Positions 19,495-41,040 of a stretch of DNA of 64,000 bases are shown here, one piece after another. Source of the DNA: Arthrobacter globiformis (GTDB taxonomy: Bacteria; Actinomycetota; Actinomycetes; Actinomycetales; Micrococcaceae). Each line of letters opens with the position of its first letter. Positions within the stretch are counted from its first letter, which is position 1. The stretch covers positions 4,712,001 to 4,776,000 of the forward strand of contig NZ_JAUSZX010000001.1 of the NCBI RefSeq assembly GCF_030818015.1, given 5' to 3'. The position numbers and the translations under genes are program-made. The notes beneath the pieces were generated by a model, which was not told the origin of the DNA, made no database searches, and was given only the letters and a program-made list of their open reading frames with translations.

Positions 19495-19547
19495 GCAACA
19501 ACAGTCACGATAAGCAACAGCGTGCTGCATCACATACCGACTGTCAA
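19495..19547 (-). promoter_or_regulatory. Shared-architecture promoter E (ferredoxin reductase 1)
   Basis: Minus strand: TTGACA (19547-19542), 17 bp, CACGCT, then TGTTGC (19519-19514) and TGTTGC (19500-19495), 19 bp apart. It matches four other promoters in this window (19574, 24590, 40931, 40986). The -10 is poor, suggesting activator dependence. Confidence 0.7.
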
Positions 19548-19573
19548 GAGGTGACGGCGGCAACAAAAAGTCC

Positions 19574-19626
19574 TTGACAATGCGTGTGAGCTAGCGCACT
19601 CTGTTGCTGAAGGCGAAGTGTGTTGA
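19574..19626 (+). promoter_or_regulatory. Shared-architecture promoter A (BCCT transporter)
   Basis: TTGACA (19574-19579), 17 bp, CACTCT (19597-19602), TGTTGC (19602-19607) and TGTTGA (19621-19626), 19 bp apart. The spacer contains GTGAGCTAGCGCAC, a near palindrome shared with promoters B and C. The transcript would carry a leader of nearly 200 nt before the ATG at 19809. Confidence 0.7.
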
Positions 19627-19808
19627 TTAGTGCGGAACTGAGACGAAACAAAAGCTCCCGGCGAAACCGCCGGTCCGCATTCACGAAGTCAGGATCGTCG
19701 ACGGCGACCATCCGGGCTGTCCTCCGTGGACGAGCCGAACCTGCCGCCGGGCCCAAACCCCGGCGGCACGGCCGGGCCGTCCCGCATATTCAATTAAGGA
19801 AACCCCTC

Positions 19809-21707
19809 ATGACAATCAATAGTGACGTCACTATCGATGAAAGCAGTGAAGACGGTCGGGCCTCGGGGGTGGAACCGGTGTCGGAACGAGAACCTGAAAC
19901 TCCCCAGGAAGACCTGGAAATCCTTCAGGCCCTGCGGGAAACAGAATCAGAACATGAAGAAGCGCGGCGCAGCAGCCAGCTGTTCCGCAATGGAGGCCTG
20001 GACAAGGTGGTCTTCGGCATCGCCGGACTGCTCACACTGGCCTTTGTTATCTGGGGATTTGCCGGCAAGGACAACCTGGCCGCCACTTCCCAGGTTGTCC
20101 TTGACTGGGTCATGGAAAACACCGGCTGGCTGTTCGTTGCCCTCTCCTCCCTGTTCGTGGTCTACGTGCTGTGGCTGGCGGTCAGCCGTTTCGGGAACAT
20201 TCCGCTGGGGAAAGACGCGGAAAAGCCCGAATACTCCATGGTCTCGTGGGTCTCAATGATGTTCGCGGCAGGCATGGGAATCGGCCTGATGTTCTACGGC
20301 GTGGCGGAGCCGCTCTACCACTACATCTCACCACCGCCGGGCACCGTGGCCGGCCAGACTCCCGCAGCCGTCCAAACGGCAATGGCAACTTCGATCTTCC
20401 ACTGGACCCTGCACCCGTGGGCCATGTACGCGGTGGTGGGCGTGGCCATGGCCTACGGGTCCTACCGCCTCGGCCGCAAGCAACTCATTTCCACCGTTTT
20501 CACGTCGCTGTTCGGCATCCGCAGGGTGGAAGGTCCCATCGGCAAGCTCATCAACATGCTGGCCATCTTCGCCACACTCTTCGGCACGGCAGCATCCCTC
20601 GGACTCGGGGCACTGCAGATCGGCAGCGGCATGGCATCCAACGGCTGGATCGGTGGCCAGCTTGCCACTCCCGTGCTCGTGGTGATCGTTGCCGTACTCA
20701 CAGCCTGCTTTGTGGCGTCGGCAGTCTCCGGCATCAGCCGCGGCATCCAGTGGCTGTCCAACATCAACATGGTCCTGGCTGCAGTCCTGGCCATCATCGT
20801 GTTCGTGGCCGGCCCGACGCTCTTCATCCTGAACCTGATCCCGGCGGCTGTCGGCGACTATGCACGGGACCTGGCCGAGATGGCTTCCCGGACGGAGGCC
20901 GTCGGCGACGATGCCCTGCGCACGTGGATGTCCGGCTGGACCATCTTCTACTGGGCCTGGTGGGTCTCCTGGACTCCCTTCGTGGGTCTGTTCATCGCCC
21001 GCATCAGCCGCGGCCGCACCATCCGCCAGTTCGTCACCGGCGTCCTGCTGGTCCCCAGCATCGTGAGCGTGATCTGGTTCGGCATCTTCGGCGGCGCCGC
21101 CATCCACATCCAGTCCACGGCAGATGCCACACCGGACAAGAGCGATGGCCTGGCCAAGATCGTCGACGGGACTCCGACGATTTCCTTTGACGGGGCTCTG
21201 TTCGATTTGCTCCACCACTTGCCTCTGCCTAACGCAATTGCCGGCGCCGTTTCCATTCTGGCGATGGTCCTGGTGGCCATCTTCTTCGTCACGGGTGCTG
21301 ACGCGGCCTCCATCGTGATGGGCTCGCTCAGCTCCAACGGTGCTGAAGAACCACGCCGGGGAGTGGTTATCTTCTGGGGTACCCTCACCGGCGCAGTCGC
21401 CGCAGTGATGCTCCTTGCCGGCGGCGACAAGCCTGCCGAGGCACTCGCCGGACTGCAACGGATCACCATCGTGTCAGCCCTGCCGTTCGTCATCGTGATG
21501 TTCCTGATGTGCCTTGCCCTGACAAGGGACCTGCGCAGGGACCCGCTGTCGCTGCGTAGGCGGCTGGTGACGTCCGTCGTCGAGCGCTCCATCCGCAGTG
21601 GAGTCGAACAGCACGGCGGCGGCCAGTTCGACCTGGTGACAAAGCACGAATGTGACGAACGGTGTGCCAACAATGGGCTTGATCCGAACGGGGACAAGCG
21701 GCACTAA
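19809..21707 (+). CDS. BCCT-family transporter (betaine/choline/carnitine type)
   Basis: 632-residue secondary transporter with about 12 membrane helices after a hydrophilic, acidic N-terminal tail of about 70 residues. Family signatures: AAGMGIGLMFYGVAEP, the tryptophan-rich SGWTIFYWAWWVSWTPFVG and FIARISRGRTIRQF. Probable uptake of glycine betaine or a related N-methyl compound. Start at 19809 follows AAGGA by 8 bases. The first 16 residues (MTINSDVTIDESSEDG) resemble those of the unrelated transporter at 24808. The C-terminal tail has ECDERC. Confidence 0.93.
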   Translation: MTINSDVTIDESSEDGRASGVEPVSEREPETPQEDLEILQALRETESEHEEARRSSQLFRNGGLDKVVFGIAGLLTLAFVIWGFAGKDNLAATSQVVLDWVMENTGWLFVALSSLFVVYVLWLAVSRFGNIPLGKDAEKPEYSMVSWVSMMFAAGMGIGLMFYGVAEPLYHYISPPPGTVAGQTPAAVQTAMATSIFHWTLHPWAMYAVVGVAMAYGSYRLGRKQLISTVFTSLFGIRRVEGPIGKLINMLAIFATLFGTAASLGLGALQIGSGMASNGWIGGQLATPVLVVIVAVLTACFVASAVSGISRGIQWLSNINMVLAAVLAIIVFVAGPTLFILNLIPAAVGDYARDLAEMASRTEAVGDDALRTWMSGWTIFYWAWWVSWTPFVGLFIARISRGRTIRQFVTGVLLVPSIVSVIWFGIFGGAAIHIQSTADATPDKSDGLAKIVDGTPTISFDGALFDLLHHLPLPNAIAGAVSILAMVLVAIFFVTGADAASIVMGSLSSNGAEEPRRGVVIFWGTLTGAVAAVMLLAGGDKPAEALAGLQRITIVSALPFVIVMFLMCLALTRDLRRDPLSLRRRLVTSVVERSIRSGVEQHGGGQFDLVTKHECDERCANNGLDPNGDKRH

Positions 21708-21715
21708 AGAACAGC

Positions 21716-21758: not shown

Positions 21759-21813
21759 TCTGACGTTGGTCCTAAAAAACGCACTGCGGCTCACACTCGG
21801 AAAGGCATCTCAT

Positions 21814-22442: not shown

Positions 22443-22591
22443 TACCTAGCTCACAAATATCAAAGGCATATCAGCCGTGCTGATGCCGTCAGAAGACCTT
22501 CGGCCGCCGTCCGCTCCCCGCAAAAACAGCGCCAAGCGCCAGCCGGGTGGACTGTGTCAGCCGCAGAACACCCGAAAGGAAACGAGATCTC

Positions 22592-23740
22592 ATGGTTCAT
22601 AAAGTGAAGGCTGTTGTTGTCAGGGCGAAGGATGCTCCGGTGTCGGTGGAGACGATCCTGGTGCCGGATCCGGGGCCGGGTGAGGCGTTGGTGGATGTTC
22701 TGACGTGCGGGGTGTGCCATACGGATCTGCATTACAAGCTGGGCGGGATCGGGGATGAGTTCCCGTATCTGCTGGGTCATGAGGCGACCGGTGTTGTCTC
22801 TGCCGTGGGTGAGGGCGTCACTGAGGTCGCGGTCGGTGACCGGGTGATCCTGAACTGGCGTGCGGTGTGCGGGCAGTGCCGGGCGTGTGCGAAGGGCCAG
22901 CCGCAGTACTGTTTCAACACGGCCAACGCGACGCAGAAGATGACCCTGGAGGACGGGACCGTGCTGTCCCCGGCGTTGGGGATCGGGGCGTTCGCGGAGA
23001 AGACCCTGGTCGCTGCCGGGCAGTGCACGAAGGTCGATGAGGACGCCGACCCGGCCGCGGTGGGTTTGCTGGGGTGCGGTGTGATGGCCGGGATCGGGGC
23101 GGCGATTAACACCGGTGAGGTCAAGCGCGGCGAGTCCGTGGCGGTGATCGGCTGCGGCGGGGTGGGGATCGCCGCGGTTGCCGGGGCGAAACTCGCCGGC
23201 GCGACGACGATCATCGCCGTGGACATCGATGAGAACAAGATCGAGATGGCGAAGTCCCTGGGCGCGACGCACGGGGTGAACTCCCGCACCGCGGACCCGG
23301 TGGAGGCGATCCGGGAGCTGACCGGCGGGAACGGGGCCGATGTGGTGATCGAGGCGGTCGGCCGCCCGGAGACGTACAAGCAGGCGTTCTACGCCCGCGA
23401 CCTCGCCGGGCGTGTGGTCCTGGTCGGGGTGCCGACCCCGGAGATGGTCCTGGAGCTGCCGCTGCTGGATGTCTTTGGTAGGGGCGGGTCGCTGAAGTCC
23501 TCCTGGTACGGGGACTGCCTGCCCTCCCGTGACTTCCCGATGCTCGTCTCCCATTACAAGCAGGGCAACCTGGACCTGGACGCGTTCGTGTCCGAACGGA
23601 TCACCATCGACCAGGTCGAGGAAGCCTTCGAGAAAATGCACGAAGGCAAGGTCCTGCGCTCCGTCGTCGAAATCCAGCCCGGCACCGGAGGAGCGGCCTC
23701 CACGGCAGCTGCTGCCCAGCCTGCAGGGGTATCCGCATGA
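22592..23740 (+). CDS. fadH: S-(hydroxymethyl)mycothiol dehydrogenase, copy 1
   Basis: Zinc, NAD-dependent medium-chain dehydrogenase (382 residues) that oxidises the formaldehyde-mycothiol adduct. Catalytic zinc region [11 protein letters not shown] and GHEATG; structural zinc [18 protein letters not shown] motif [15 protein letters not shown]. Start 22592 follows AAAGGAAACGAG. The stop overlaps the next ATG (ATGA). The first half uses more GGG, GCG and TTG codons than neighbours. A copy with one amino-acid change (Pro/Ser near the C terminus) lies at 50315-51463, inverted. Confidence 0.95.
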
Positions 23741-24357
23741 GCGTCACAATCGAGAACCTCGTCACCTCGGGCACGTTTTCCCTGGACGGCGGGACCTGGG
23801 ATGTGGACAACAACGTCTGGATCGTGGGCAACGAGGAGGAATGCGTGATCATTGACTCCCCGCACGACGCCGCCGCGATCATCAACCAGGTCCGGGGCCG
23901 GAAGGTCCTGGCGGTCCTGCTCACGCACGCGCATAACGACCACATCGGCGCCGCCCGCGAGGTCGCCGACGCCGTCGGCGCCCCTGTCTGGCTGAACCCG
24001 GAGGACCAGGTCCTCTGGGAACAGGTCTACCCCGGCACCACCGCCGACCGGGACATCGCGGACGGGGACGAGTTCCAGGTCGCCGGTGCCACGCTGAAGG
24101 CGATCCACACCCCGGGCCACTCACCGGGCTCCACGTGCTTCCACCTCGAAACCGAGAACACCGTGTTCACCGGGGACACCTTGTTCAACGGCGGACCCGG
24201 CGCCACCGGCCGCTCCTACAGCGACTACCCCACCATCCTGACCTCCATCCGCGAACGACTCCTCACCCTCCCGGCGGACACAACCGTCAGGACCGGACAC
24301 GGGGACAACACCACCATCGCCGCCGAACGCGAAACCCTCGCCAAAGTCGCGCAGTAA
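23737..24357 (+). CDS. Metallo-beta-lactamase-fold hydrolase of the mycothiol formaldehyde pathway, copy 1
   Basis: 206-residue hydrolase with the metal motif [10 protein letters not shown] (about residues 64-73), [18 protein letters not shown] and GHGDNTT. Coupled by a 4-base overlap to S-(hydroxymethyl)mycothiol dehydrogenase, so the likely substrate is S-formylmycothiol, releasing formate and mycothiol (inference from context). The inverted copy at 49698-50318 differs at three residues (D/E, A/P, V/A). Confidence 0.9.
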
Positions 24358-24589: not shown

Positions 24590-24642
24590 TTGACATTGAC
24601 TGTGAGCTGACGCACGCTGTTGCATAGGCCGAATCCTGTTGA
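24590..24642 (+). promoter_or_regulatory. Shared-architecture promoter B (MHS transporter)
   Basis: TTGACA (24590-24595), 17 bp, CACGCT (24613-24618), TGTTGC (24618-24623) and TGTTGA (24637-24642), 19 bp apart; the spacer holds GTGAGCTGACGCAC. Similarity to promoter A continues through the leader (GCCGAACCTG, GAAGTCA, AAGGAA) into the coding sequence. Confidence 0.7.
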
Positions 24643-24807
24643 TTAACACGGAACACGCGAGGATCCCACGTGCGGTCCCCCGTAAGAAGTCACAGTCCTG
24701 GACAACGCCTCCTGGCCCTGGAGTCCAAGGACCGCCGAACCTGTCCGCGGGGTGAAACGCAGCTCGCTGCACGTGAGCCCCGCCAATACTCAGTAAGGAA
24801 CCCCTTT

Positions 24808-26265
24808 ATGACAGTCCAAGGTGATGTCACAACCGATCAGAGCAGTAGAGACAGACCGTACTCCCGCCGGCTCACGGTGTCCGACGTCAATGTCGTGGAC
24901 CAGCGGATGCTGAAGAAGGCCCTCGGCGGCACCATCGTGGGCAACACCATGGAATGGTACGACGTCGGGGTTTTCGGCTATCTCATTACCACCATGGGTC
25001 CGGTGTTCCTGCCGGAAGCGGACAGGACGGTCCAGACCCTGTTCCTGCTCGGCACCTTCGCGGCGACCTTCATTGCGCGGCCTATTGGCGGCGTCGTCTT
25101 CGGTTGGCTCGGGGACAAGGTAGGCCGGCAAAAGGTGCTCGCCGCGACCCTCATGCTAATGGCGGCCAGCACCTTCGCCGTCGGCCTCCTGCCCGGCTAC
25201 GCGCAAATAGGCGTCTGGGCGGCCGCGCTGCTGGTTCTCCTGAAGCTCGTGCAGGGCTTCTCCACGGGTGGCGAGTACGCAGGGGCCACCACGTTCGTGT
25301 GTGAATATGCCCCTGACAAGCGGCGCGGCTTCTTCGCCAGTTTTCTGGACATGGGCTCCTATATCGGGTTTGCCCTGGGCGCTGCCACGGTCTCGGTCCT
25401 GCAGGTGACGCTCGGCGAGGCCGCCATGGAGGACTGGGGCTGGAGGCTGCCATTCCTGGTGGCCGGACCTCTGGGCCTGATCGCCATCTACTTCCGGAAC
25501 AAGATCGAGGAATCCCCCCAGTTCCAGGCCACCCTTGGAGCGCAGGAGGCAGCCTCCGTCGCGGCCGCTGCCGGCGACAAGGCTGATGCCAGGGGGCCGG
25601 TGGGCATCATGAAAAGCCACTGGCGCCAGATCGTGCTGGCCATGATCCTGGCCGGGGCTGCCAACACCGTCGGCTACGCCCTGACGTCGTACATGCCCAC
25701 ATATTTGACCGAGTCCAAGGGCTATGACCCCGTCCACGGCACGCTGCTGACCATACCGGTGCTCGTGGTGATGTCCTTGTGCATCCCGCTCACCGGCAAA
25801 CTTTCGGACCGCATCGGACGGCGCCCGGTGCTGTGGATCGGTGCCGGAAGCACCGTTCTGTTCGCCGTCCCCGCCTTCATGCTGATCGGCATCGGCAGCG
25901 TCTGGTCCACCCTGGCGGGCCTGTCCCTGGTTGCCTTCCCCGTGACGTTCTACGTTGCCAACCTCGCATCAGCACTTCCGGCCCTGTTCCCCACGTCATG
26001 CCGCTACAGCAGCATGGGCATCGCCTACAACTTCTCCGTGGCGATCTTCGGCGGGACAACGCCGTTCCTGGTCCAGGGCCTGATCGAGGCCACCGGGGAC
26101 GACATGGCCCCCGCGTACTACCTGATGGCGACGTCGGTCATCGGCGCGGTCGCCATCTATTTCCTTCGGGAGTCCGCCCGCCGCCCGCTCCCGGGCTCCA
26201 TGCCGAGCGTGGACACCGAGGCGGAGGCGCGGGAACTCGTCGCCACGCAGGACGTGTGGCGCTAG
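24808..26265 (+). CDS. MHS-family (ProP-like) MFS transporter
   Basis: 485 residues, 12 predicted helices. Signatures: GGTIVGNTMEWYDVGVFGYL, RPIGGVVFGWLGDKVGRQK, GFSTGGEYAGATTF, and GKLSDRIGRRPVL in the second half. This family includes proton symporters for betaine, proline and related osmolytes, so uptake of betaine or dimethylglycine is plausible. Start 24808 follows AAGGAA. The N-terminal tag MTVQGDVTTDQSSRD resembles that of the BCCT transporter although the proteins are unrelated. Confidence 0.93.
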   Translation: MTVQGDVTTDQSSRDRPYSRRLTVSDVNVVDQRMLKKALGGTIVGNTMEWYDVGVFGYLITTMGPVFLPEADRTVQTLFLLGTFAATFIARPIGGVVFGWLGDKVGRQKVLAATLMLMAASTFAVGLLPGYAQIGVWAAALLVLLKLVQGFSTGGEYAGATTFVCEYAPDKRRGFFASFLDMGSYIGFALGAATVSVLQVTLGEAAMEDWGWRLPFLVAGPLGLIAIYFRNKIEESPQFQATLGAQEAASVAAAAGDKADARGPVGIMKSHWRQIVLAMILAGAANTVGYALTSYMPTYLTESKGYDPVHGTLLTIPVLVVMSLCIPLTGKLSDRIGRRPVLWIGAGSTVLFAVPAFMLIGIGSVWSTLAGLSLVAFPVTFYVANLASALPALFPTSCRYSSMGIAYNFSVAIFGGTTPFLVQGLIEATGDDMAPAYYLMATSVIGAVAIYFLRESARRPLPGSMPSVDTEAEARELVATQDVWR

Positions 26266-26345: not shown

Positions 26346-27026
26346 CTAGGCGGCGAACAGGGCTGTCCGCACGGCCTTCTCAAAGCCGTCCACGTGTTCG
26401 CGGGCCAGCGCTGCCGCCCGGGCCTCGTCCCCTTCGATCACTGCCTCAAGCAGGTCGACATGCTCGTGCACATGCCGGGAAAGGTTCGGCAGGCGGTCCA
26501 GCACCATGCACCAAATGCGTGTTGCCAAATTGTCGTAGCGGATCAATGCGTCTTCCAGATGCGGATTTGCCGCTGCGGCGTAGATTCCCTGATGCACCCG
26601 GGCGTCCAGGCGCAGGGTCTCCACCACAGATGCACTGTCCACGTCGAAGGCCTCCACTTCCTCGACAATGAGGCGGAGGCGATCCCGGGCGGCCGGCGTG
26701 GCCACCCGTGCAGCACGGGAGGCTGCGAGAGGCTCCAGCTGGGCACGGATTTCCGAGATGAACGCGAGGTCCGTAACCTCAACGCGCGTTGCGAAAGTGC
26801 CGCGCCGCGGATAGGTCACCACAAGCCGGTCCACTTCGAGCCGTTTCAGCGCTTCCCTGACCGGAGTGCGCCCCAAGCCGAGCTGCTTGGCAATCCCCTC
26901 GTCGTAGAGCGGATCACCGGGCCGGATCTCCAGGGTCAGCAGGCTGTCACGTATCCGTTCATAGGCCACATCGGCCAGGGACCTCGAACCTCCGGCCTCC
27001 GTCACCGCCAAAGCTTCAAACGCCAC
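26346..27026 (-). CDS. GntR-family (FCD domain) transcriptional regulator 2
   Basis: About 226 residues. Winged helix with LGLGRTPVREALKRLEVDRLVV and YPRRGTFATRVEV; FCD domain with ANPHLEDALIRYDNLATRIW and VHEHVDLLEAV. Start taken as GTG 27026 (AGGAGAGG about 10 bases upstream); ATG 27053 is the alternative. The open frame continues far upstream but that part is antisense to purU and not coding. Divergent from purU-dmg and next to operator-like sites, so it probably controls that operon and itself. Paralogue of the 7387 regulator. Confidence 0.9.
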   Translation of the reverse strand: MAFEALAVTEAGGSRSLADVAYERIRDSLLTLEIRPGDPLYDEGIAKQLGLGRTPVREALKRLEVDRLVVTYPRRGTFATRVEVTDLAFISEIRAQLEPLAASRAARVATPAARDRLRLIVEEVEAFDVDSASVVETLRLDARVHQGIYAAAANPHLEDALIRYDNLATRIWCMVLDRLPNLSRHVHEHVDLLEAVIEGDEARAAALAREHVDGFEKAVRTALFAA

Positions 27027-27100
27027 CGCTCCGCCTCTCCTATGGGCCAACATTCGCCTATTGACCTCATCCGCACACCAGTATACGCTGGCCATCAGCC

Positions 27101-27133
27101 CTGATATATCAATAAGGTTATCAACCATATATC
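27101..27133. promoter_or_regulatory. Operator-like TGATATATCA and ATATATC elements before purU 1
   Basis: TGATATATCA at 27102-27111 and a second half-site ATATATC at 27127-27133 lie between the divergent GntR 2 and purU 1 genes. The first matches the core of the palindrome at 7276-7289. The second is 5 bases before the purU ribosome site AAAGGA. Confidence 0.6.
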
Positions 27134-28061: not shown

Positions 28062-28098
28062 AGCAGCCACCTACAGGTTGCAGAAGCCTACTACTTAA

Positions 28099-30609
<2,511 letters not shown>

Positions 30610-32513: not shown

Positions 32514-34880
32514 ATGGCCTCTAAAGCCCCCCGCGAGAACATCGATGAGTCAAAGCTGACCGTCAGCAAACCCAAAACCAAGGCCGTAGGCATCCCCGCG
32601 GTGGCCAACGCCCTGAAAATCTCCCTGGAGCAGATGGGTCCGCTGCGCAGCGTCCAGACCCTGATGGCGGTCAACCAGATAGACGGCTTCGACTGCATGG
32701 GCTGCGCCTGGCCGGAACATGAGAAGCGCAATGCCGCGGAATTCTGCGAGAACGGCGCCAAGGCCGTGGCGGAGGAGGCTACCCGCCGCCGCGTCAGCCC
32801 TGAGTTTTTCGCCCGGCATTCCGTCGCCGACCTCAAAACCCGTGATGACTACTGGCTGGGGCAGCAGGGAAGGCTCACCCACCCGATGGTCCTGGATGAG
32901 GGCGCAACCCACTACAGGCCCATTGGCTGGGACGACGCCCTGGAAATGATCGCCCAGGAACTCAGGGACATGGACCACCCCGACCAGAGCGTCTTCTATA
33001 CCTCCGGCAGGACCTCCAACGAGGCGGCGTTCGTGTACCAGCTGCTCGTCCGCGGTGTGGGCACCAACAACCTTCCGGACTGTTCAAATATGTGCCACGA
33101 GTCCTCCGGGTCGGCGCTGGTGGAGACCATTGGCATTGGCAAGGGTTCGGTCAGCCTCAAGGATCTGGAGACGGCGTCCCTCATTTTCGTGGCGGGCCAG
33201 AACCCGGGCACGAACCACCCGCGCATGCTCAGCGCCTTGGAGAAGGCCAAGAAAAACGGTGCCGCCATCGTATCCATCAACCCGCTCCCCGAGGCCGGAC
33301 TCCTTCACTTCGAGAACCCGCAGACCATTGCCGGAACGCTGGTGGGCACGCAGCTGACTGACGACTTCCTGCAGATCAGGGCCGGCGGGGACCAGGCACT
33401 CTTCCAGGGCCTCGGAAAATACCTGCTGGACGCAGAACGCGCCGGCAGGAACACCCCGGGCCTGACCACGGTTTTTGACCACGGTTTCATCAGGAACCAT
33501 ACGGTCGGCCTCGAGTCCTACCTTTCGCAGCTGGAACAGGTGGAGTGGGACGACATCGTCGAGGCGACCGGCCTGACCATGGAGCAGATCAACGCCACCG
33601 GTGAACGGCTCCTGGCCTCGGGCTCCACCATTGTCTGCTGGGCGATGGGCCTGACGCAGCACAAGCACTCGGTGCCCACCCTTCGCGACGTCGTCAATGT
33701 CCTGCTGCTGCAAGGCAACATCGGCAAGCCCGGAGCGGGAGTCTGCCCGGTTCGCGGACATTCCAATGTCCAGGGTGACCGGACCATGGGCATCTTCGAA
33801 CGGATGCCCGAAGGCTTCCACGACAGGCTGGACCAGGAATTCCAGTTCCATTCACCCCGGGCGCACGGCTACGACACCGTCGCCGCAATCCGGGCGATGC
33901 GTGACGGCAAGGTGAGGCTGTTCGTGGGCATGGGCGGGAACTTCGTGCGGGCGGCTCCGGACTCGGATGCCACCGAGAAAGCCCTGGCCAATACCCGGCT
34001 GACCGTGCAGATCTCGACGAAACTGAACCATTCGCACCTGTCGACAGGAAAGCGCGCCCTGATTCTCCCAACGCTGGGCCGCACCGAGCGGGATACCCAG
34101 CGGTCCGGTGACCAAAGGGTCACCGTGGAGGATTCCATGAGCGCTGTTCACGCATCCCGCGGCCGGCTCAAGCCCGCCAGCGAGCACCTGATGTCCGAGG
34201 TGGCCATCGTCTGCAACCTCGCGCACAAGGTGTTCACGGACGCCGACGGCCAGCCCCGCCCCAACACGCCGGTGGCCGACTGGCTCGCGCTCCGGGACGA
34301 CTACTCCCTGGTCAGGAAGCACATCGAGGCCGTCATCGATGGCTTCGAGAATTTCGAAGAGAGAATCCAGCACCCCGGCGGCTTCGTTCTGCCCCACCCG
34401 CCACGGGACAACAGGGAATTCAAGACCCCGTCCGGCAAGGCGCACTTCACATCGAATACCCTGGAGTACCTTCGGGTCCCGCCCGGCCGGCTGATCCTGC
34501 AGACCCTCCGTTCGCACGACCAGTACAACACCACCATTTATGGAAAGGACGACCGGTACCGCGGAATCCACGGAGGCCGGCGCGTGGTCCTGGTCAACGA
34601 GGCGGACATCGCCGAGCTGGGCTATGCCGACGGCGACATGGTGGACCTGGTCTCGGAGTTCCGGGGTACAGAACGCAGGGCAGAGAGCTTCCGCGTCGTC
34701 AGCTACTCGACGCCGAAGGGCTGCGCAGCCGCCTACTACCCGGAAACCAACGTGCTGGTACCGCTGGACTCCGTGGCCGACACCAGCGGCACCCCGACGT
34801 CCAAGTCCGTCGTCGTGAGACTGGAACCGGCCGGGGCAAAAGCACCGGAAAATCAGATTCCTGCAACTCTTCCCGCCTGA
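32514..34880 (+). CDS. FdhF/YdeP-family molybdopterin oxidoreductase 1 (formate dehydrogenase-like)
   Basis: 788 residues of the bis-MGD oxidoreductase superfamily, YdeP-like branch. N-terminal Cys set FDCMGCAWPE and AAEFCENGAK (putative Fe-S site); SVFYTSGRTSNEAAF; DCSNMCHESSG with the likely Mo-ligand Cys; LQGNIGKPGAGVCPVRGHSN; C-terminal cofactor domain with LQTLRSHDQYNTT. Placed after purU, folD and fchA and before moeA and fdhD, so formate oxidation is the likely activity. No NADH-binding partner subunit is encoded nearby; the electron acceptor is unknown. Confidence 0.87.
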   Translation: MASKAPRENIDESKLTVSKPKTKAVGIPAVANALKISLEQMGPLRSVQTLMAVNQIDGFDCMGCAWPEHEKRNAAEFCENGAKAVAEEATRRRVSPEFFARHSVADLKTRDDYWLGQQGRLTHPMVLDEGATHYRPIGWDDALEMIAQELRDMDHPDQSVFYTSGRTSNEAAFVYQLLVRGVGTNNLPDCSNMCHESSGSALVETIGIGKGSVSLKDLETASLIFVAGQNPGTNHPRMLSALEKAKKNGAAIVSINPLPEAGLLHFENPQTIAGTLVGTQLTDDFLQIRAGGDQALFQGLGKYLLDAERAGRNTPGLTTVFDHGFIRNHTVGLESYLSQLEQVEWDDIVEATGLTMEQINATGERLLASGSTIVCWAMGLTQHKHSVPTLRDVVNVLLLQGNIGKPGAGVCPVRGHSNVQGDRTMGIFERMPEGFHDRLDQEFQFHSPRAHGYDTVAAIRAMRDGKVRLFVGMGGNFVRAAPDSDATEKALANTRLTVQISTKLNHSHLSTGKRALILPTLGRTERDTQRSGDQRVTVEDSMSAVHASRGRLKPASEHLMSEVAIVCNLAHKVFTDADGQPRPNTPVADWLALRDDYSLVRKHIEAVIDGFENFEERIQHPGGFVLPHPPRDNREFKTPSGKAHFTSNTLEYLRVPPGRLILQTLRSHDQYNTTIYGKDDRYRGIHGGRRVVLVNEADIAELGYADGDMVDLVSEFRGTERRAESFRVVSYSTPKGCAAAYYPETNVLVPLDSVADTSGTPTSKSVVVRLEPAGAKAPENQIPATLPA

Positions 34881-34899
34881 TATATCTTTACGATATAAT
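34878..34899 (+). promoter_or_regulatory. moeA promoter with TGATATATC element overlapping the upstream stop
   Basis: TGATATATC (34878-34886) begins at the stop codon of the preceding gene. A consensus -10 TATAAT follows at 34894-34899. No clear -35. The element matches the glyA, fadH and purU upstream sites, suggesting the same GntR-type control. Expected start near 34906, leaving a leader of about 160 nt. Confidence 0.5.
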
Positions 34900-34963
34900 T
34901 GGAATATCACAGCGGCGGCCCGCGGGGCGGGGCCTGAGCCCGCACTGCCAAGGGTAGAGAGCA

Positions 34964-35046
34964 GTTTCGTTTCCCGTGAACGGTGTTTCGGAGGCCTGAA
35001 ATACCTGGGGAGGTAAGCGCCGAAACACCGCTTTCGGGAAACGAAC
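34964..35046 (+). promoter_or_regulatory. Long structured leader RNA before moeA
   Basis: TTCGTTTCCCG (34966-34976) pairs with CGGGAAACGAA (35035-35045). A second perfect 11-bp helix, CGGTGTTTCGG (34981-34991) with CCGAAACACCG (35020-35030), lies inside, separated by symmetric 4-base internal loops (TGAA/CTTT). The apical 28 bases hold ACCT-GGGG-AGGT. Without a T-run it is not a typical terminator. A cis-regulatory RNA for molybdenum-cofactor genes is possible; a match to the known Moco riboswitch could not be verified. Confidence 0.6.
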
Positions 35047-35067
35047 AATCCAACGAGGGGACGACCA

Positions 35068-36360
35068 GTGGTAGCTCCAGCCCTGCAAAGCGTCGACAGG
35101 CCGGGCAAGGATGGCGGGCGGCCTCCCAACCGGGAGCACACCTGGGCGGAAGCACGCCGCCTGGCTTTTGACTCCGCCAGCCCGCTGGGACCAGAGGGTG
35201 TGCCGCTTGGGGAGGCGAACGGCAGAACCCTGGCGGCCGACGTCGTCGCGCTTCAGGAGATGCCCCACTACGCCTCATCCGCCATGGACGGCTGGACGGT
35301 CAGTGGTGACGGCCCGTGGGTACTGACGGAACCGGGACACCCCCTGCACAGCGGAGAGGCCAGCCCCGTAGTCACCGGCGGCGTAATCCCTCCGGGCACC
35401 TTGGCGGTGCTCCGTGTTGAGAGCGGACGGCTTGCCACCAATGCAAGCGGCCAGGCGATGCTTAGACTGGGCGAGGCGGCATCCCCCGGCGAACCCCGTC
35501 CGGGCCAGCACATCCGCGAGTCGGGCGAGGAAGCGGCAGCCGGCGAGGTGCTGATCCCCGCCGGAACAACCTTGAACCCTGCGCATATCGCGCTGGCCGC
35601 CGTCGCCGGCTTCGACCAGCTCACGGTGCGGGGCAAGCCACTGGTCAAGATGCTGGTTACAGGCTCAGAGGTCGTCGCGGCCAGGCTCCCGGCACCGGGA
35701 CAGGTCAGGGATGCCTTCGGTCCCCAGCTCAGCACTGTCATCCAGATGCTTGGCGGTGTCCCGGGGCCCCTGGTCCGGATCGGGGACTCCTACGAGGAAT
35801 GGCTCACGGCGCTGGGTGCCTCCGAAGCGCCGATGGGGCAGTGGCCCGACGTCATCGTGACCACCGGCGGCACAGGACGTTCAGGCGCGGACCATTTCCG
35901 AAATGCCGTGGTGGCGCTAGGCGGACGGCTCCTCATCGACGGCATCGCCATGCGGCCCGGCCATCCCGCCGCCTTGGGCAAACTGCCCAACGGCCGGTTC
36001 GTCGTCGGACTTCCCGGCAATCCGCTCGCCGCCCTCATGGCGCTCTTCACCGTGGGCGGTCCGCTGCTGGCCGCCCTCGGCCACCAGCCGTTGCCCGGCA
36101 TCAGCCGGGTGCCGTGCGGCAGCACCATCGACGCCCACCGTGCGTCCACCCGGCTCTTGCCGTTCCGCTGGGCCAACGGCCTGGCGACTCCGGCCCACTA
36201 CACGGGCCCCGGAATGATGCGCGGGCTGGCCAGCGCCGACGGCGTCATGGTGGTTCCGTCCCGCGGCGTTCAGCTGGGCGAGCCAGTCCCTGCATTTGCG
36301 CTCCCGTGGCGCCCGGAGCTGCGGCCACCGCTGCCCGGCAAATTGATCTGGGAGGACTAG
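35068..36360 (+). CDS. moeA: Molybdopterin molybdenumtransferase
   Basis: Inserts molybdenum into adenylylated molybdopterin. 430 residues with the MoeA/gephyrin E domain: ALQEMPHYASSAMDGWTVS, GEVLIPAGTTLNPAHIALAA, MLVTGSEVV, VTTGGTGRSGADHF and FVVGLPGNPLAALMAL. GTG start with GAGGGG upstream. Followed 4 bases later by fdhD. The gene sits in the formate operon region rather than with general moa genes, so it may serve the formate dehydrogenases specifically. Confidence 0.93.
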   Translation: MVAPALQSVDRPGKDGGRPPNREHTWAEARRLAFDSASPLGPEGVPLGEANGRTLAADVVALQEMPHYASSAMDGWTVSGDGPWVLTEPGHPLHSGEASPVVTGGVIPPGTLAVLRVESGRLATNASGQAMLRLGEAASPGEPRPGQHIRESGEEAAAGEVLIPAGTTLNPAHIALAAVAGFDQLTVRGKPLVKMLVTGSEVVAARLPAPGQVRDAFGPQLSTVIQMLGGVPGPLVRIGDSYEEWLTALGASEAPMGQWPDVIVTTGGTGRSGADHFRNAVVALGGRLLIDGIAMRPGHPAALGKLPNGRFVVGLPGNPLAALMALFTVGGPLLAALGHQPLPGISRVPCGSTIDAHRASTRLLPFRWANGLATPAHYTGPGMMRGLASADGVMVVPSRGVQLGEPVPAFALPWRPELRPPLPGKLIWED

Positions 36361-36363
36361 CGC

Positions 36364-37257
36364 GTGGCACGCATGACCCAACGCCGGAAAGTCCACCGCT
36401 ACCTGCTGGACGGCTCCGAGGCCGCCATGGAATACCCCGTGCGGCTCCGTGAAGACGTGCTGGCCGCGGAGGAACCGCTGGAAATCCGCTTCGGAAACTT
36501 GTCCTTTGCCGTGACGATGCGGACGCCGGGCGATGACTTTGACCTCGTTGCGGGCTTTCTCGTCTCGGAAGGCATCATCGCCAGCCAGGCGGATCTCGTG
36601 TCACTCCGCTTCTGCGCCGGCGAGGACGAAACTGGCAGGCAGACCTTCAACGTCGTCGAAGCGCAGTTCCGGCCCGGCCTGGCACTGCCGGACACGGGCA
36701 GGCACGTTTACACGTCCAGCTCCTGCGGCATCTGTGGCAGCACATCCATCGAGGCCGTCCGCAAGACCCTCACTTATGACGTGCACGAGGACCAGCTGCG
36801 GGTGCCGGTGGACGTCATAGCGCGGCTGCCGGAACAGCTGCGCGAAGCCCAGGCGCTGTTCGACAAGACCGGCGGCGTCCACGCTGCAGGGCTGTTCAAG
36901 ATCGACGACGGGGGTGAGGCGGAGCTGCTTTGCCTCCGCGAGGACGTGGGCCGCCACAATGCAGTGGACAAGGTCATCGGGTGGGCGCTGCGCGAAGGGC
37001 TTCTGCCGCTGTGCGGAACCGTCCTGCAGGTCTCGGGCAGGGCGTCGTTCGAGCTCGTCCAGAAGGCTGCCCTCGCCGGCATCCCAGTTTTGGCGGCGGT
37101 CAGCGCACCCTCAAGTCTTGCGGCGGACCTCGCCGCCGACACCGGCATAACGCTTGTGGGCTTCAACAGGGGCAAGAGCCTCAACGCATATGTCGGCCAG
37201 GAACGCCTGGCACCTGCACTCGCGGCAGCTGCCCTGACGAGTCCCGCCGTCGGCTGA
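36364..37257 (+). CDS. fdhD: Formate dehydrogenase sulfurtransferase FdhD
   Basis: Transfers sulfur to the Mo-bis-MGD cofactor of formate dehydrogenases. 297 residues; the essential cysteines are Cys121 and Cys124 in SSSCGICGS, the same numbers as in E. coli FdhD. Also VRLREDVLAAEEPLEIRFG, CLREDVGRHNAVDKVIGWAL and VLQVSGRASFELVQKAA. GTG start, 3 bases after moeA. Its presence supports the formate dehydrogenase assignment of the two FdhF/YdeP-like genes. Confidence 0.95.
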   Translation: MARMTQRRKVHRYLLDGSEAAMEYPVRLREDVLAAEEPLEIRFGNLSFAVTMRTPGDDFDLVAGFLVSEGIIASQADLVSLRFCAGEDETGRQTFNVVEAQFRPGLALPDTGRHVYTSSSCGICGSTSIEAVRKTLTYDVHEDQLRVPVDVIARLPEQLREAQALFDKTGGVHAAGLFKIDDGGEAELLCLREDVGRHNAVDKVIGWALREGLLPLCGTVLQVSGRASFELVQKAALAGIPVLAAVSAPSSLAADLAADTGITLVGFNRGKSLNAYVGQERLAPALAAAALTSPAVG

Positions 37258-37466: not shown

Positions 37467-38273
37467 ATGGCTGCAAGAGACGAACCAGGGACTGGCAGGG
37501 ATCCGGACGCCCAAGGCGGAGGGGTCCAGTCCGTCGACCGCGCCCTCCAGATCCTGGAGATCCTCGCCCGAGACGGACACGCAGGCGTCAGCGACATTGC
37601 CGACGAAATGAGGGTCCACAAGTCCACCGTCTCGCGGCTGCTGGGATCGCTGGTGTCCAGGGAGATCGTGCGGCAGAACAACGACCGCGGCAAGTATCAG
37701 TTGGGCTTTGGCATCCTGCGACTGGCCAGTTCCATTCCAGGCCGGCTGAGCCTGGTCCACGAGGCACGTCCCATCCTGGAGAGCCTCGCAGACCAATACA
37801 AGGAAACCGTCAACCTCGCCGTCCTGCAGTCCAACTACGCGGTGAACGTGGACCAGGCCATGGGCCCGTCAACGCTGGCCACGTCTGACTGGGTTGGCAG
37901 CCTCACGCCTCTCCATGCCACGTCCAGCGGCAAGGTACTGCTGGCAGCACTGCCTGTTGAAGAACGCTCCCGGATCCTCCGGGAGGCGGGCCTTCCGGCC
38001 CGGACCCCGCGGACCATCACGGACCGGGACACCCTGGAAAACCAACTCCTCGATGTCTCCCGCAACGGCTATGCAGTTGTCCATGAGGAATTCGAGATCG
38101 GACTGACCGCGGTTGCCGTGCCCGTCTACAACCACTTCGGGACGGTCATCGGGTCCGTCAGTATCTCCGGCCCCGCCTTCCGCTTCGACCCGGAAAATAC
38201 GCCCGGTCTGATCCAGGGTCTCCAAGAGGCCGGCCTGAACATCAGCGGAAAAATGGGCTACACCCACCGATGA
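37467..38273 (+). CDS. IclR-family transcriptional regulator 2
   Basis: 268 residues, very similar to the 16114 regulator: QSVDRALQILEILARDGHAG, IADEMRVHKSTVSRLLGSL, VNLAVLQSNYAVNVDQAMG. Convergent with the oxygenase/reductase operon of glycine betaine monooxygenase. A candidate to act at the TGTTGC repeats found at five promoters in this window (inference). Start ATG 37467. Confidence 0.93.
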   Translation: MAARDEPGTGRDPDAQGGGVQSVDRALQILEILARDGHAGVSDIADEMRVHKSTVSRLLGSLVSREIVRQNNDRGKYQLGFGILRLASSIPGRLSLVHEARPILESLADQYKETVNLAVLQSNYAVNVDQAMGPSTLATSDWVGSLTPLHATSSGKVLLAALPVEERSRILREAGLPARTPRTITDRDTLENQLLDVSRNGYAVVHEEFEIGLTAVAVPVYNHFGTVIGSVSISGPAFRFDPENTPGLIQGLQEAGLNISGKMGYTHR

Positions 38274-38331
38274 CCCCGGCCGCTGGCCGGGGTCACCGCA
38301 AGGGTTTGGTTGCGCCGTTAGTGGCGGAACC

Positions 38332-39558
38332 TTAGGAGGCCGGGGTAGCGGTCTCTTTGCGCTGCAGGGTTTCGGCGCGTTCCTCCAGCGGCGGGGTGTC
38401 CGCGGTGAGGCCCAGCAGGGCTTCTCCGGACAGCTGGACGTCGCCGACCTTTTCCTGGACCCAGTCGTGGAAAGCGCCGATGTGGTGTTCGCTGGGGACG
38501 AGCACGCCGCCCTTGGCGTAGGACTTAGATGCCATGCCCGGCTGGCAGCGCTCGCACGCGTCGAAGTCCTGCATGTTCACGCGGTGGAACAGCTCAACGG
38601 AGGCGCTGACGTCCTTGCCGGACTCCACCACGGAGGGCAGGTACAGCCAGTCGCATTCAACGATCGTGTGGTCTGCGGACATCGGGAACATGCGGTGGAT
38701 GATCACGTGGTCCGGAACCAGGTTCACGAACACGGTCGGCTTGATCGTGATCGCGTAGTAGCGCCGGTCCTGGTCCTCGGCCACGCCCGGGATGACGTCC
38801 AGGCCCTCGGAGCCATCTACAGTGAAGCCCTTGATGTCCTCACCGAACTCCGCGCCGTGGCCCACGAAGTACTGAGCGGCCAGGCCGTCAGCGAACTCCG
38901 GCAGGACCTCGGTCAGCTCCGGGTGGATGGTGGCGCAGTGGTAGCACTCCATGAAGTTCTCAATGATGAGCTTCCAGTTGGCCTTCACGTCATAACGGAT
39001 CCGGCGGCCCACGGACAGGTTCGCAACGTCGTACCCGTCAATGGCGTGCACGTTGCCCAGGCGCTCCTCGATCGCGCCCATCACGTCATCCTCGAAGGAC
39101 GGCGGCTCCTCGGCCAAGCACACCCACACGTAGCCGAGGTACTCGCGGATGTGAACCTTGGACAGGCCGTACTCGTCGCGGTCGATGTCCGGCATCTTGG
39201 TCAGGTTCGGGGCTGCGATCAGCTTGCCCTCGAAGTCATAGGTCCAGGCGTGGTACGGGCACTGGAAGTTGCGGGCAGCTTCGCCCTTTTCCTCCATGCA
39301 CAGCTTCACGCCGCGGTGCCGGCAGACGTTGTAGAAGGCCCGGATCTCGCCCTTGCGGGTCCGCGAGATCAGCACGCTTTCCCGGCCCACCTGCACCGTC
39401 TGCCACGCCCCTGGCTTGTCCAGGTCCGAGGACCGGATCGCACAGAACCACATCTGCTCGAAAATACGCTCCTGCTCAGCCCGGAAGATTGCCGGATCCG
39501 TGTACAAGTGGCCGCCCAGCGTCGGGATCAGGCTCGGGGTGGATACCTCAACAGACAA
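38332..39558 (-). CDS. gbcA: Glycine betaine monooxygenase, oxygenase component (Rieske)
   Basis: 408 residues of the ring-hydroxylating oxygenase alpha family acting on quaternary amines. Rieske ligands Cys79, His81, Cys100 and His103 (CRHRG, CPYHAW); mononuclear iron histidines His207 and His212 in NFMECYHCATIHPEL; a late Asp motif MQDFDACERCQPG. Together with adjoining reductase and nearby ferredoxin, and dmg/sox genes, it should demethylate betaine to dimethylglycine and formaldehyde. 54 bases after the reductase gene, same strand. A closely related carnitine-type oxygenase role is a less likely alternative. Confidence 0.92.
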   Translation of the reverse strand: MSVEVSTPSLIPTLGGHLYTDPAIFRAEQERIFEQMWFCAIRSSDLDKPGAWQTVQVGRESVLISRTRKGEIRAFYNVCRHRGVKLCMEEKGEAARNFQCPYHAWTYDFEGKLIAAPNLTKMPDIDRDEYGLSKVHIREYLGYVWVCLAEEPPSFEDDVMGAIEERLGNVHAIDGYDVANLSVGRRIRYDVKANWKLIIENFMECYHCATIHPELTEVLPEFADGLAAQYFVGHGAEFGEDIKGFTVDGSEGLDVIPGVAEDQDRRYYAITIKPTVFVNLVPDHVIIHRMFPMSADHTIVECDWLYLPSVVESGKDVSASVELFHRVNMQDFDACERCQPGMASKSYAKGGVLVPSEHHIGAFHDWVQEKVGDVQLSGEALLGLTADTPPLEERAETLQRKETATPAS

Positions 39559-39612
39559 TTTGTTCTCCTAACAAAACAACACAAACAACACGAATTACAA
39601 GAAGAGTCGGGG

Positions 39613-40854
39613 CTAAAGCCCCGCGGCAGCACCGGCAAGGACGGGTTCGCCCGCCGGCGTCAAAACTGAGGGCACGACGGCGGCTGCCGGCTTGGGCGCC
39701 GACGGCGCGAGGCTCCGGCGCCACTTGGTGAACAGCCGAGGCTGGTTCATGCCCAGTACGGCAACGGGAACGTCATCCCGGTAGTAGACGGCCAGCAGGC
39801 TATGCTCGGCAGCATCCCCCGCCTCGACGTCCAGGCGGTCGTAACCGGCCGAGTGACCGGCGAACTGGATCTTCACCCCGTGCTGGTCCGACCAGAAGTA
39901 CGGCGGCTTCAGCGGCTGCGCCGGTGCGTCGTCATCGAACAGCGCCTGAACCGCCAGGGCCGCCCGCTCCTGGGCTCCCGTCCAGTGCTCCACCCGGCGG
40001 TGCCTGTCAACGGCGGCGTCAAACCAGGCGGCGCAGTCACCCACTGCCACAATGCCGGGAACGTTGGTGCGCCCCATCGCGTCGCACAGCACACCGCCGT
40101 CGACCTCCACGCCGGAACCGGCGAGCCATTCAACGTTCGGCTCCGCGCCGATTCCCACCACCACAACGTCGGCGGCGACAAAGGTCCCGTCGGCCAGCCG
40201 GAGCCCGGTCACGTTCCCCTCGCCTGCGTAAAAGTCCTCGATGACTGCCGACGAGATGAGCCGGACACCCTTGGCGGTGTGCAGGCCGCCCACCACCGAA
40301 CCCATCTCAGTACCCAGCTGCGCGGCGAACGGCACCGGTTTGGTGTCCACCAGGGTGACGTCCATCCCGCGGGAGGCGGCGGAAGAGGCAACCTCGGCGC
40401 CGACGAAGCCTGCTCCAATGACGGCCATCTTGCTCCCCGGCACAAGTTCCGGCGCCAGGCTTTGCGCATCTGCGAGGGTGCGCAGCGAGAAGACGTTGCT
40501 CAGGCCGGCCAGGGCTGGCAGCTGCCGGGCACGAGCGCCGGTGGCGATGACGATGCCGTCAGCCTGGATAACCTTGCCGTCGGCCAGGCCGATGGTCTTC
40601 GACGACGCGTCCAGGGACACTGCACGTGTACCCAGCAGCCATTCGGCGTCAAGGTCGTCAGTTTCGGTTTCCAGGGACAGGTCCTCGGCCGTAATGGATC
40701 CCAGCAGGAAGTCCTTGGAGAGCGGCGGCCTGTCATACGGACGGTGCTCTTCATCGCCGATGATGACGAGCCGTCCGGTGAAGCCTTGGGCGCGGGCTGC
40801 CCGCGCGGCGGAAAGACCGGCCAGCGAGGCTCCCACGATCGCAAGCGTCTGCAT
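39613..40854 (-). CDS. Ferredoxin--NAD(P) reductase 2, reductase component of betaine monooxygenase
   Basis: 413 residues; FAD motif IVGASLAGLSAARAARAQGF, second Rossmann motif VIGAGFVGAEVASSAASRG, GIVAVGDCAAWFDAAVD. Supplies electrons via the Rieske ferredoxin encoded divergently at 41101. Co-transcribed with the oxygenase gene downstream. About three quarters of residues appear shared with reductase 1 (18260). Promoter D precedes it. Confidence 0.93.
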   Translation of the reverse strand: MQTLAIVGASLAGLSAARAARAQGFTGRLVIIGDEEHRPYDRPPLSKDFLLGSITAEDLSLETETDDLDAEWLLGTRAVSLDASSKTIGLADGKVIQADGIVIATGARARQLPALAGLSNVFSLRTLADAQSLAPELVPGSKMAVIGAGFVGAEVASSAASRGMDVTLVDTKPVPFAAQLGTEMGSVVGGLHTAKGVRLISSAVIEDFYAGEGNVTGLRLADGTFVAADVVVVGIGAEPNVEWLAGSGVEVDGGVLCDAMGRTNVPGIVAVGDCAAWFDAAVDRHRRVEHWTGAQERAALAVQALFDDDAPAQPLKPPYFWSDQHGVKIQFAGHSAGYDRLDVEAGDAAEHSLLAVYYRDDVPVAVLGMNQPRLFTKWRRSLAPSAPKPAAAVVPSVLTPAGEPVLAGAAAGL

Positions 40855-40883
40855 TTCTTCACCCTCTTTCTATTGCTCTTAGC

Positions 40884-40936
40884 GCAACAAGAATCGCTAT
40901 ATGCAACAGAGTGATCCATACCACGGTAGCTGTCAA
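40884..40936 (-). promoter_or_regulatory. Shared-architecture promoter D (reductase-oxygenase operon)
   Basis: Minus strand: TTGACA (40936-40931), 17 bp, CACTCT (40913-40908), TGTTGC (40908-40903) and TGTTGC (40889-40884), 19 bp apart. Divergent from promoter C, whose -35 is 50 bp away. Confidence 0.72.
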
Positions 40937-40985
40937 GGGATTGGTGTCTCATTAAGGACGAGCTGCGTAATCGGGTTATTAACCC

Positions 40986-41040
40986 TTGACAAAACAGTGT
41001 GAGCGAAAGCACTCTTGTTGCATATTACGACTGCTGTTGA
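40986..41040 (+). promoter_or_regulatory. Shared-architecture promoter C (Rieske ferredoxin operon)
   Basis: TTGACA (40986-40991), 18 bp, CACTCT (41010-41015), TGTTGC (41016-41021) and TGTTGA (41035-41040), 19 bp apart. The only member with 24 rather than 22 bp between TTGACA and the first TGTTGC. Followed by ATGCGGAAC, also found in related form after promoters A and B. Confidence 0.7.

Follow-up and report, generated by a model that had tools for sequence, protein, structure and literature searches.

Promoters of a putative betaine uptake-and-demethylation regulon in Arthrobacter globiformis combine a candidate tandem IclR operator with a palindrome in the -35/-10 spacer

In a 64,000-nt stretch of the Arthrobacter globiformis genome (5,085,937 bases in total), referred to below as the window, five promoter-like sites (A to E) of shared architecture lie in front of two ferredoxin reductase genes, two transporter genes and a Rieske ferredoxin-purU-dmg unit. 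With a probability of roughly 0.7, we read these sites as modular promoters of a betaine uptake-and-demethylation regulon, which would be repressed by IclR-type proteins until a ligand is present and would receive a further input from a CRP/GlxR-type protein at the spacer between -35 and -10. This reading starts from what was observed in sequence, conservation, gene content, co-occurrence and the separability of the promoter modules.

All elements were re-read in the window, and the five sites lay where a sequence-only reading of this DNA had placed them (Table 1). TTGACA is followed after 17-18 bp by CAC(T/G)CT and then by TGTTGC, with 22 bp between TTGACA and TGTTGC in four sites and 24 bp in the fifth, as that reading had described. 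Its elements stood, but not as separate units in four of the five sites, in which the last T of CAC(T/G)CT is at the same time the first T of TGTTGC; only at the site starting at 40986 are the -10 and TGTTGC apart. The genes assigned to the sites were likewise found for both reductases, the ferredoxin-purU-dmg unit and the two transporters, while the oxygenase is presumably served as the second gene behind the promoter at 40936 (-), 54 bp behind ferredoxin reductase 2.

Table 1 Promoter elements, candidate operators and associated genes in the window
Feature	Position	Strand	Gene served or annotation
Site A, -35 TTGACA	19542..19547	-	ferredoxin reductase 1
Site A, -10 CACGCT, 17-bp spacer; spacer with GTG-N6-CAC, not GTG-N8-CAC	19519..19524	-	
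Site A, IclR-type palindrome 1, GTTGCTTATCGTGACTG	19502..19518	-	
Site A, IclR-type palindrome 2, GTTGCGCATAAAGCAAT	19483..19499	-	
Ferredoxin reductase 1, start MKTLAIVG	18260..19465	-	Pfam Pyr_redox_2/Reductase_C
Site B, -35 TTGACA	19574..19579	+	BCCT transporter
Site B, spacer palindrome GTGAGCTAGCGCAC (GTG-N8-CAC)	19586..19599	+	
Site B, -10 CACTCT	19597..19602	+	
Site B, IclR-type palindrome 1	19603..19619	+	
Site B, IclR-type palindrome 2, GTTGATTAGTGCGGAAC	19622..19638	+	
BCCT-family betaine/choline/carnitine transporter	19809..21707	+	Pfam BCCT 576.6 bits; NCBIfam betaine_BCCT 530.8, below cut-off 650
Site C, -35 TTGACA	24590..24595	+	ProP-like MFS transporter
Site C, spacer palindrome GTGAGCTGACGCAC	24602..24615	+	
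Site C, -10 CACGCT	24613..24618	+	
Site C, IclR-type palindrome 1	24619..24635	+	
Site C, IclR-type palindrome 2, GTTGATTAACACGGAAC	24638..24654	+	
MFS metabolite/H+ symporter, ProP-like	24808..26265	+	NCBIfam ProP 476.8 bits, below cut-off 544
Site D, -35 TTGACA	40931..40936	-	ferredoxin reductase 2 - oxygenase
Site D, spacer palindrome GTGGTATGGATCAC	40911..40924	-	
Site D, -10 CACTCT	40908..40913	-	
Site D, IclR-type palindrome 1, GTTGCATATAGCGATTC	40891..40907	-	
Site D, IclR-type palindrome 2	40872..40888	-	
Ferredoxin reductase 2	39613..40854	-	
Rieske oxygenase, related to GbcA and solved Rieske demethylases	38332..39558	-	PDB relatives 3vca, 4qup, 6y8j
Site E, -35 TTGACA	40986..40991	+	Rieske ferredoxin-purU-dmg
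Site E, spacer palindrome GTGAGCGAAAGCAC	40999..41012	+	
Site E, -10 CACTCT, 18-bp spacer	41010..41015	+	
Site E, IclR-type palindrome 1, GTTGCATATTACGACTG	41017..41033	+	
Site E, IclR-type palindrome 2, GTTGAGCTATGCGGAAC; 15/17 match to IclR consensus	41036..41052	+	
Small Rieske ferredoxin	41101..41451	+	
purU, formyltetrahydrofolate deformylase, putative start codon	41466..42533	+	
Dimethylglycine oxidase-like protein (DAO + GCV_T)	42569..45076	+	
IclR paralogue 1, candidate regulator; real start probably residue 26	16039..16929	+	
IclR paralogue 2, candidate regulator	37467..38273	+	

The five sites are real and far beyond chance. TGTTGC-N13-TGTTG occurs five times in the window and is preceded by TTGACA each time, while 60 order-1 simulations of 64 kb averaged 0.017 such repeats, never with TTGACA. 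In the whole genome, with reversed patterns as controls, TTGACA-N22-TGTTGC-N13-TGTTG had four exact matches, all of them in the window, and the next-best matches carried three mismatches (two matches; one in the reversed control). The operator part alone, with up to three mismatches allowed, gave 5 exact matches, 2 at two and 25 at three mismatches (reversed control, 7 in total). These genome counts speak against a motif scattered at random, the outcome that the sequence-only reading had named as its refutation. A standard promoter scan detected none of the three sites lying in the scanned stretch, and the segment 40860-41100 had no match among 72,556 plasmid records.

The sites recur in related genomes. 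Among 395 genomes of the family, the strict pattern was present in 54 (reversed control, none) and a looser pattern, in which CAC and the first T were left free, in 82 (two control matches in all). A position matrix, as had been proposed for checking the motif, was built and used to scan related genomes, and the sites were found mostly before betaine/choline uptake and demethylation genes. When the matrix was made without the window sites, these five scored 40-51 bits and the next window position 12.7; 20 column-permuted matrices gave no matches. Columns left unfixed by the search were near-invariant in the 77 unique strict sites, namely GTG eleven bases before CAC (74, 73 and 75 of 77) and, in the operator, A8 (77/77), G13 (75), A14 (73) and G32 (76).

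The 19-bp period of the TGTTGC direct repeat, which the earlier reading had taken as the recognition unit, was confirmed; the repeat itself was rejected in that role. Because the unfixed columns repeat at 19 bp and both frames match the IclR consensus, it is replaced by two tandem 17-bp IclR-type palindromes, of which the TGTTGC copies are the left arms and whose centres lie 19 bp apart, directly after the -10. Scored against the published 17-bp IclR form GKTYCRYW3RYGRAMC, 67 unique operators matched on average at 12.75/17 positions in frame 1 and 12.61/17 in frame 20, with 6.7 expected and at most 9.2 in all other frames; in 500 shuffles, run on the first 40 of these operators, the maximum never exceeded 8.2. 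The window's own sites scored 11-14 for palindrome 1 and 13-15 for palindrome 2. Part of this match stems from the GTTGC and GTTG fixed by the search pattern, and 19 was the best period among the unfixed columns too (3.65; next, 1.79). In the symmetry analysis, centre 28, that of palindrome 2, scored highest. For IclR group-1 sites, Suvorova and Gelfand (2021, PMC8222616) give the form GKTYCRYW3-4RYGRAMC and report tandem sites in 94 groups, at distances of 18-22 nt, a range that includes the 19-bp distance observed here. The operator is very probably bound by one or both IclR paralogues.

Two IclR paralogues encoded next to these genes had been put forward as regulators, and operator form, neighbourhood and co-occurrence support them as candidates. 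The paralogues are ~80% identical over 255 residues and have the recognition helix HKSTVSRL in common; HKST(V/A/I)SRL was found in 92 of 93 aligned rows (a few genes counted twice), the remaining row being without that part. In a genus sample of 77 genomes, an IclR orthologue (at least 65% identity, E up to 1e-40) was present in 54 of the 55 motif-positive and in 9 of the 22 motif-negative genomes (Fisher p = 3e-8, not corrected for phylogeny). In four of these nine pattern-negative genomes (L137, L141, L144, L145), a site of 38-39 bits missed by the pattern lies next to the IclR gene. Within the fetched stretches, an IclR gene was found in 76 of the 105 loci with a site above 30 bits. Either or both paralogues could serve all five sites.

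One genome has its IclR orthologue in two overlapping pieces in different frames (G377:C1:2492397-2493195), which would be either a pseudogene or a sequencing error, with one betaine site still present. Another neighbour, a GntR/FCD regulator (26349-27050, Pfam), was rejected as regulator of the five sites, with an orthologue at 70% or more in just 9 of the 105 site loci. Its gene (~26349-27112) is divergent from purU1-dmg1, and the palindrome TGATATATCA between them, which also occurs near the IclR gene in L137 and L144, is possibly the operator of this GntR/FCD regulator.

The gene content across genomes supports the earlier proposal of a regulon for betaine uptake plus demethylation. Downstream of 190 matrix hits scoring >20 (186 unique), we counted BCCT transporters (59), ferredoxin reductases (33), dimethylglycine oxidases (20), a second GbcA-like oxygenase (20), MFS transporters (11, six of them distant relatives), PurU (7) and six others, comprising IclR (2), the window-type oxygenase (2), a molybdopterin oxidoreductase (1) and a formaldehyde dehydrogenase (1). 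Automated gene picking made no downstream assignment for the remaining 34 hits, many of which were judged to be failures of the picker; among them are a choline dehydrogenase (L113, 833.5 bits, above cut-off) and a ProV-type ATPase (L130, above the cut-off of its subfamily model). At L112, a ferredoxin directly follows the site and precedes a betaine-aldehyde-dehydrogenase-like gene (below cut-off). The site-bearing genes are mainly a betaine/choline set. The second regulon oxygenase (L045) reached 382.6 bits to the GbcA model. The window oxygenase has its best solved relatives in 3vca, which we take to be stachydrine demethylase, and 4qup; an alignment with carnitine monooxygenase 6y8j spans residues 8-359.

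The core promoter combines a canonical -35 with an unusual -10. NANNNT follows TTGACN after 16-19 bases, nearly always 17 or 18, in 134 of the 135 unique sites found with the looser pattern. Among 186 unique operator-only matches, 170 have TTGACN-17/18-NANNNT, nine are without TTGAC and seven have TTGAC without NANNNT. The first base of the -10 in these 170 is C in 164, G in 5, A in 1 and T in none. The -35 TTGACA and the 17-18-bp spacer agree with sigma-A promoters, whereas the -10 is CANNNT and never TANNNT. In 11 of 11 cases with a gap of more than 2 between CAC and TGTTGC, the T of the -10 is unmoved and is therefore more than the operator's own T. TTGACA/TANNNT pairs exist in the same genome (20 vs 4 in the control), and the missing T is therefore specific. 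TTGACA-N17/18-CANNNT pairs numbered 20 (control, 10), five of them in the window.

A further element, missed in the earlier reading, is GTG-N8-CAC in the -35/-10 spacer, overlapping the -10. It was present in 111 of the 135 sites, which had not been selected for it, while other arm distances occurred 0-8 times apart from N10 (37), a count attributed to overlapping GTGTG. In three other genera, the spacer palindrome is missing from several sites that precede the same genes and retain -35, -10 and operator. The palindrome was discarded as a third IclR site, since it is without the C5-N7-G13 core and absent at these sites. The genome contains one match to PF00027 (cNMP-binding), in a protein closest, among solved structures, to Crp/Fnr-family chains, presumably M. 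tuberculosis CRP and C. glutamicum GlxR. TGTGA-N6-TCACA, the GlxR/CRP consensus (PMC7999487), was matched with at most one mismatch 105 times in the genome (control, 29), and binding of M. tuberculosis CRP close to the start is described as going with repression (PMC4117774). On balance, and by a modest margin of confidence, we favour a CRP-like protein at the spacer palindrome.

The strongest competitor for this element, though an unlikely one, is that GTG-N8-CAC, together with the CANNNT -10, is a promoter signature recognized by RNA polymerase carrying a particular sigma factor. It would account for the constant eleven bases from GTG to CAC, kept with either a 17- or an 18-bp -35/-10 spacer, and for CACNCT accompanying GTG. 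However, CAC is the exact reverse complement of GTG, as in the site of a dimeric protein, and the sites without GTG retain TTGAC and CANNNT (or GANNNT) and precede the same genes.

Several observations weigh against the regulon as we read it, or against parts of it. Palindrome 1 is weak by symmetry, its best-scoring centre lying one base off the expected position. Only four of the five window sites have GTG-N8-CAC, site A having GTG-N6-CAC; and although at least one GTGA half is present in 123 of 133 sites, both halves are found in 17, so that the palindrome is mostly half-perfect, falls short of the full TGTGA-N6-TCACA and is a candidate rather than a proven CRP site. TTGACA/CANNNT pairs outside the window barely exceed chance (15; control, 10). 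The window oxygenase scored 227.5 bits to NCBIfam GbcA (NF058607), below the curated cut-off of 670, and its sequence therefore supports no more than a betaine-type demethylase, with glycine betaine as a candidate substrate. Five genomes (L138-L140, L142, L143) have IclR and the cluster but nothing scoring above 12 bits within the fetched stretch. The stretch before BCCT that bears the site in related genomes is missing in all five; with this promoter lost, BCCT would depend there on the upstream operon. Conversely, G334 has an intact site and no IclR orthologue at E 1e-40. At its locus (L136, ~10050-11106), the site lies before BCCT and the place of IclR is taken by another open frame, by reading an SGNH-hydrolase-like one. 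With an intact betaine site and the neighbouring IclR gene missing, G334 offers a natural test of constitutive expression.

For the mechanism, we infer IclR binding, the ligand, the sign of regulation, the transcript start and the identity of the CRP-like protein. RNA polymerase would use the sigma-A-type core (TTGACA, 17-18 bp, CANNNT). One or both IclR paralogues may bind the tandem operators as pairs of dimers, covering about -6 to +30 of the expected transcript, and would thereby block initiation or promoter escape until betaine or a demethylation product binds IclR and causes its release. At the four window sites with GTG-N8-CAC, the spacer would most likely be bound by the CRP/GlxR orthologue, competing with RNA polymerase and adding repression as a carbon-status input.

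From the position of the operator, IclR likely acts by repression. An activating IclR, which would sit at the downstream tandem sites of a weak CANNNT promoter and aid RNA polymerase alone or with a CRP-like protein, seems to us rather improbable. Basal strength may indeed be low, given that T is the first base of the -10 in 0 of the 170 sites with a -35/-10 pair, and the IclR family is described as including activators (PMC8222616). Nevertheless, the window sites all have a perfect -35, and the start region is occupied by the operator, a position rarely taken by activators. GylR, an IclR-family protein of Streptomyces with a footprint right after the -10, is said to repress from such a position (PMC9732521).

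More remote than an activating IclR is another dimeric regulator of GTG-N8-CAC geometry on the spacer, such as the redox repressor Rex (TTGTGAAW4TTCACAA): the Rex site of S. aureus has the same arm distance (PMC2883068), but Rex half-sites need GTGAA and the fifth base is A in just 7 of the 133 sites. Finally, that the likeness of the five promoters is a mere trace of segmental duplication without regulation can practically be dismissed, for although sites A and D precede paralogues and B and C have a homologous leader, the same columns are conserved across 82 genomes of several genera with the intervening bases diverged, and also at unrelated genes, which already contradicts it.

The window does contain duplications. 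The ferredoxin reductases behind site A (19547 (-)) and site D (40936 (-)) are 78% identical paralogues, and sites B and C are followed by a homologous leader of ~150-170 nt (19638-19808 and 24654-24807; local score 59, with no score above 42 among 2000 simple shuffles) in front of unrelated proteins (BCCT and MFS), as if promoter and leader had been copied onto a second transporter. Sites A/D and B/C are thus not independent, and functional evidence must come from other genomes. A riboswitch or structured leader behind B and C was rejected: Rfam was empty for 19400-19900, which includes the leader of site B, and the RNAalifold covariation term for five leaders was unfavourable (+1.32).

On a larger scale, the region holds a diverged double set, in which 16161-19465 corresponds to 37505-40854 and 27225-30021 to 41625-44488 (72-80% DNA identity). 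IclR, ferredoxin reductase, purU and dimethylglycine oxidase are each present twice, and the betaine promoter is found at only one purU-dmg pair. Molybdopterin oxidoreductase, MoeA-like and FdhD genes lie between both halves (32514-37257), which suggests a formate dehydrogenase that may consume the formate from PurU. Two inverted, near-identical copies of 1782 nt (22576-24357 and 49698-51479) each hold a mycothiol-dependent formaldehyde dehydrogenase gene and a metallo-beta-lactamase-fold gene; at 99% identity, compared with 72-80% for the other duplicates, they would reflect either recent duplication or gene conversion.

The core promoter also occurs without the IclR operator. TTGACN5-8GTGN8CACNNT had nine matches in the genome (reversed control, one), four of them the palindrome-bearing betaine sites, and the IclR operator pattern with up to three mismatches was absent at all five others. 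By Pfam, these precede an amino acid permease (C1:490802), a second permease of the same family (C1:1404409), an ABC-type membrane component (C1:549966), a DAO-family FAD oxidoreductase (C1:462969) and a Bax-inhibitor-like protein (C1:1562405). Four further sites were inspected among the 15 TTGACA-N17/18-CANNNT matches outside the window. MFS transporters lie behind three of them; ATG-N8-CAC and CACACT are found at two of these sites, and at the third the palindrome is not in its usual position.

Among the best 80 of 117 relatives of the permease at C1:1404409, the core was present within 400 nt upstream in 36 loci and absent in 44; other arm distances occurred 0-2 times and N10 nine times. 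The core-bearing loci (Arthrobacter, Glutamicibacter, Kocuria, Lentzea) are not 36 independent cases, as many Lentzea loci are near-identical. Their spacers are 17 bp in 10 and 18 bp in 26, and the IclR tandem operator is absent from all of them. Instead, 33 of the 36 have another palindrome directly after the -10, GGACT..AGTCC in exact form in 18 and in looser forms in 15, by a search pattern that was written after the sequences had been seen. It lies ~60-155 nt upstream of the permease (L169-L248).

Tentatively, at somewhat less than even odds, these loci point to a widespread class of modular nutrient-uptake promoters in Actinomycetota, with a perfect or near-perfect -35, a global operator embedded in the spacer (probably for cAMP-CRP/GlxR) and an exchangeable pathway operator after the -10. 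The downstream slot would hold the tandem IclR operator at betaine genes or a GGACT..AGTCC-type palindrome at amino-acid-permease-family transporters, and the right arm of the global operator would form the first half of the -10, which would therefore be CANNNT instead of TANNNT. Of the nine such sites read elsewhere in the genome, two weigh against our reading, the one before the Bax-inhibitor-like gene, which has a 15-bp spacer and is probably due to chance, and the fourth of the inspected sites, which precedes a GntR/FCD regulator. If the class is real, promoters would become two-input gates by exchange of the downstream slot alone, the wiring of actinobacterial uptake genes to carbon status would be explained, and promoter searches of the TATAAT type would miss such promoters.

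For betaine catabolism, the regulon provides a complete set of candidates (oxygenase, reductase, ferredoxin, transporters, C1 genes) together with a candidate switch. It is relevant to Arthrobacter sp. Rue61a, which grows on glycine betaine and whose predicted pathway was called 'incomplete' (PMC3534580, whose main text is without the word IclR). The matches listed from the openly licensed literature (titles and abstract starts) contained no IclR regulon for betaine demethylation in Actinobacteria. Each part of the promoter is of a known kind, and neither the betaine regulon nor the combination of spacer global site, CANNNT and exchangeable operator was among those matches.

The closest known systems each share part of this arrangement. 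As in GbcA-type Rieske betaine demethylase systems (NF058607; 3vca, 4qup, 6y8j), the oxygenase and reductase lie beside dimethylglycine oxidase and C1 genes. The layout differs in that a separate small Rieske ferredoxin is encoded here, and the oxygenase falls below the GbcA cut-off. Both GbcAB and the carnitine enzyme consist of two components. The operator resembles subgroup GTT-11-AAC of IclR group 1 in its 17-bp unit, C5-N7-G13 core, GTT..AAC ends and tandem spacing (here 19 bp between centres), with an IclR gene nearby; it differs in the fourth base of the left arm (G, not Y), in being paired with a fixed core promoter and in its betaine genes (PMC8222616, in whose main text, supplements aside, the words Arthrobacter, choline, sarcosine and dimethylglycine are absent). 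The operators of PcaU, PobR and HmgR also have an extra direct half-site beyond one palindrome, in contrast to the two full tandem 17-mers found here, and PcaU and PobR regulate aromatic catabolism (PMC8222616). With the GlxR/CRP operators of Actinobacteria (PMC7999487, PMC4117774), the spacer palindrome shares the GTG-N8-CAC geometry, usually one perfect GTGA half and a CRP orthologue encoded in the genome; here, the second half is usually imperfect, the element lies inside the -35/-10 spacer and CAC is part of the -10. GylR of Streptomyces, which responds to glycerol, is likewise a repressor of the IclR family from an actinobacterium, and it leaves a single footprint immediately behind the -10 of its own promoter; compared with GylR, for which the available text of PMC9732521 mentions no spacer palindrome, the betaine sites have a different operator, a different ligand and different genes.

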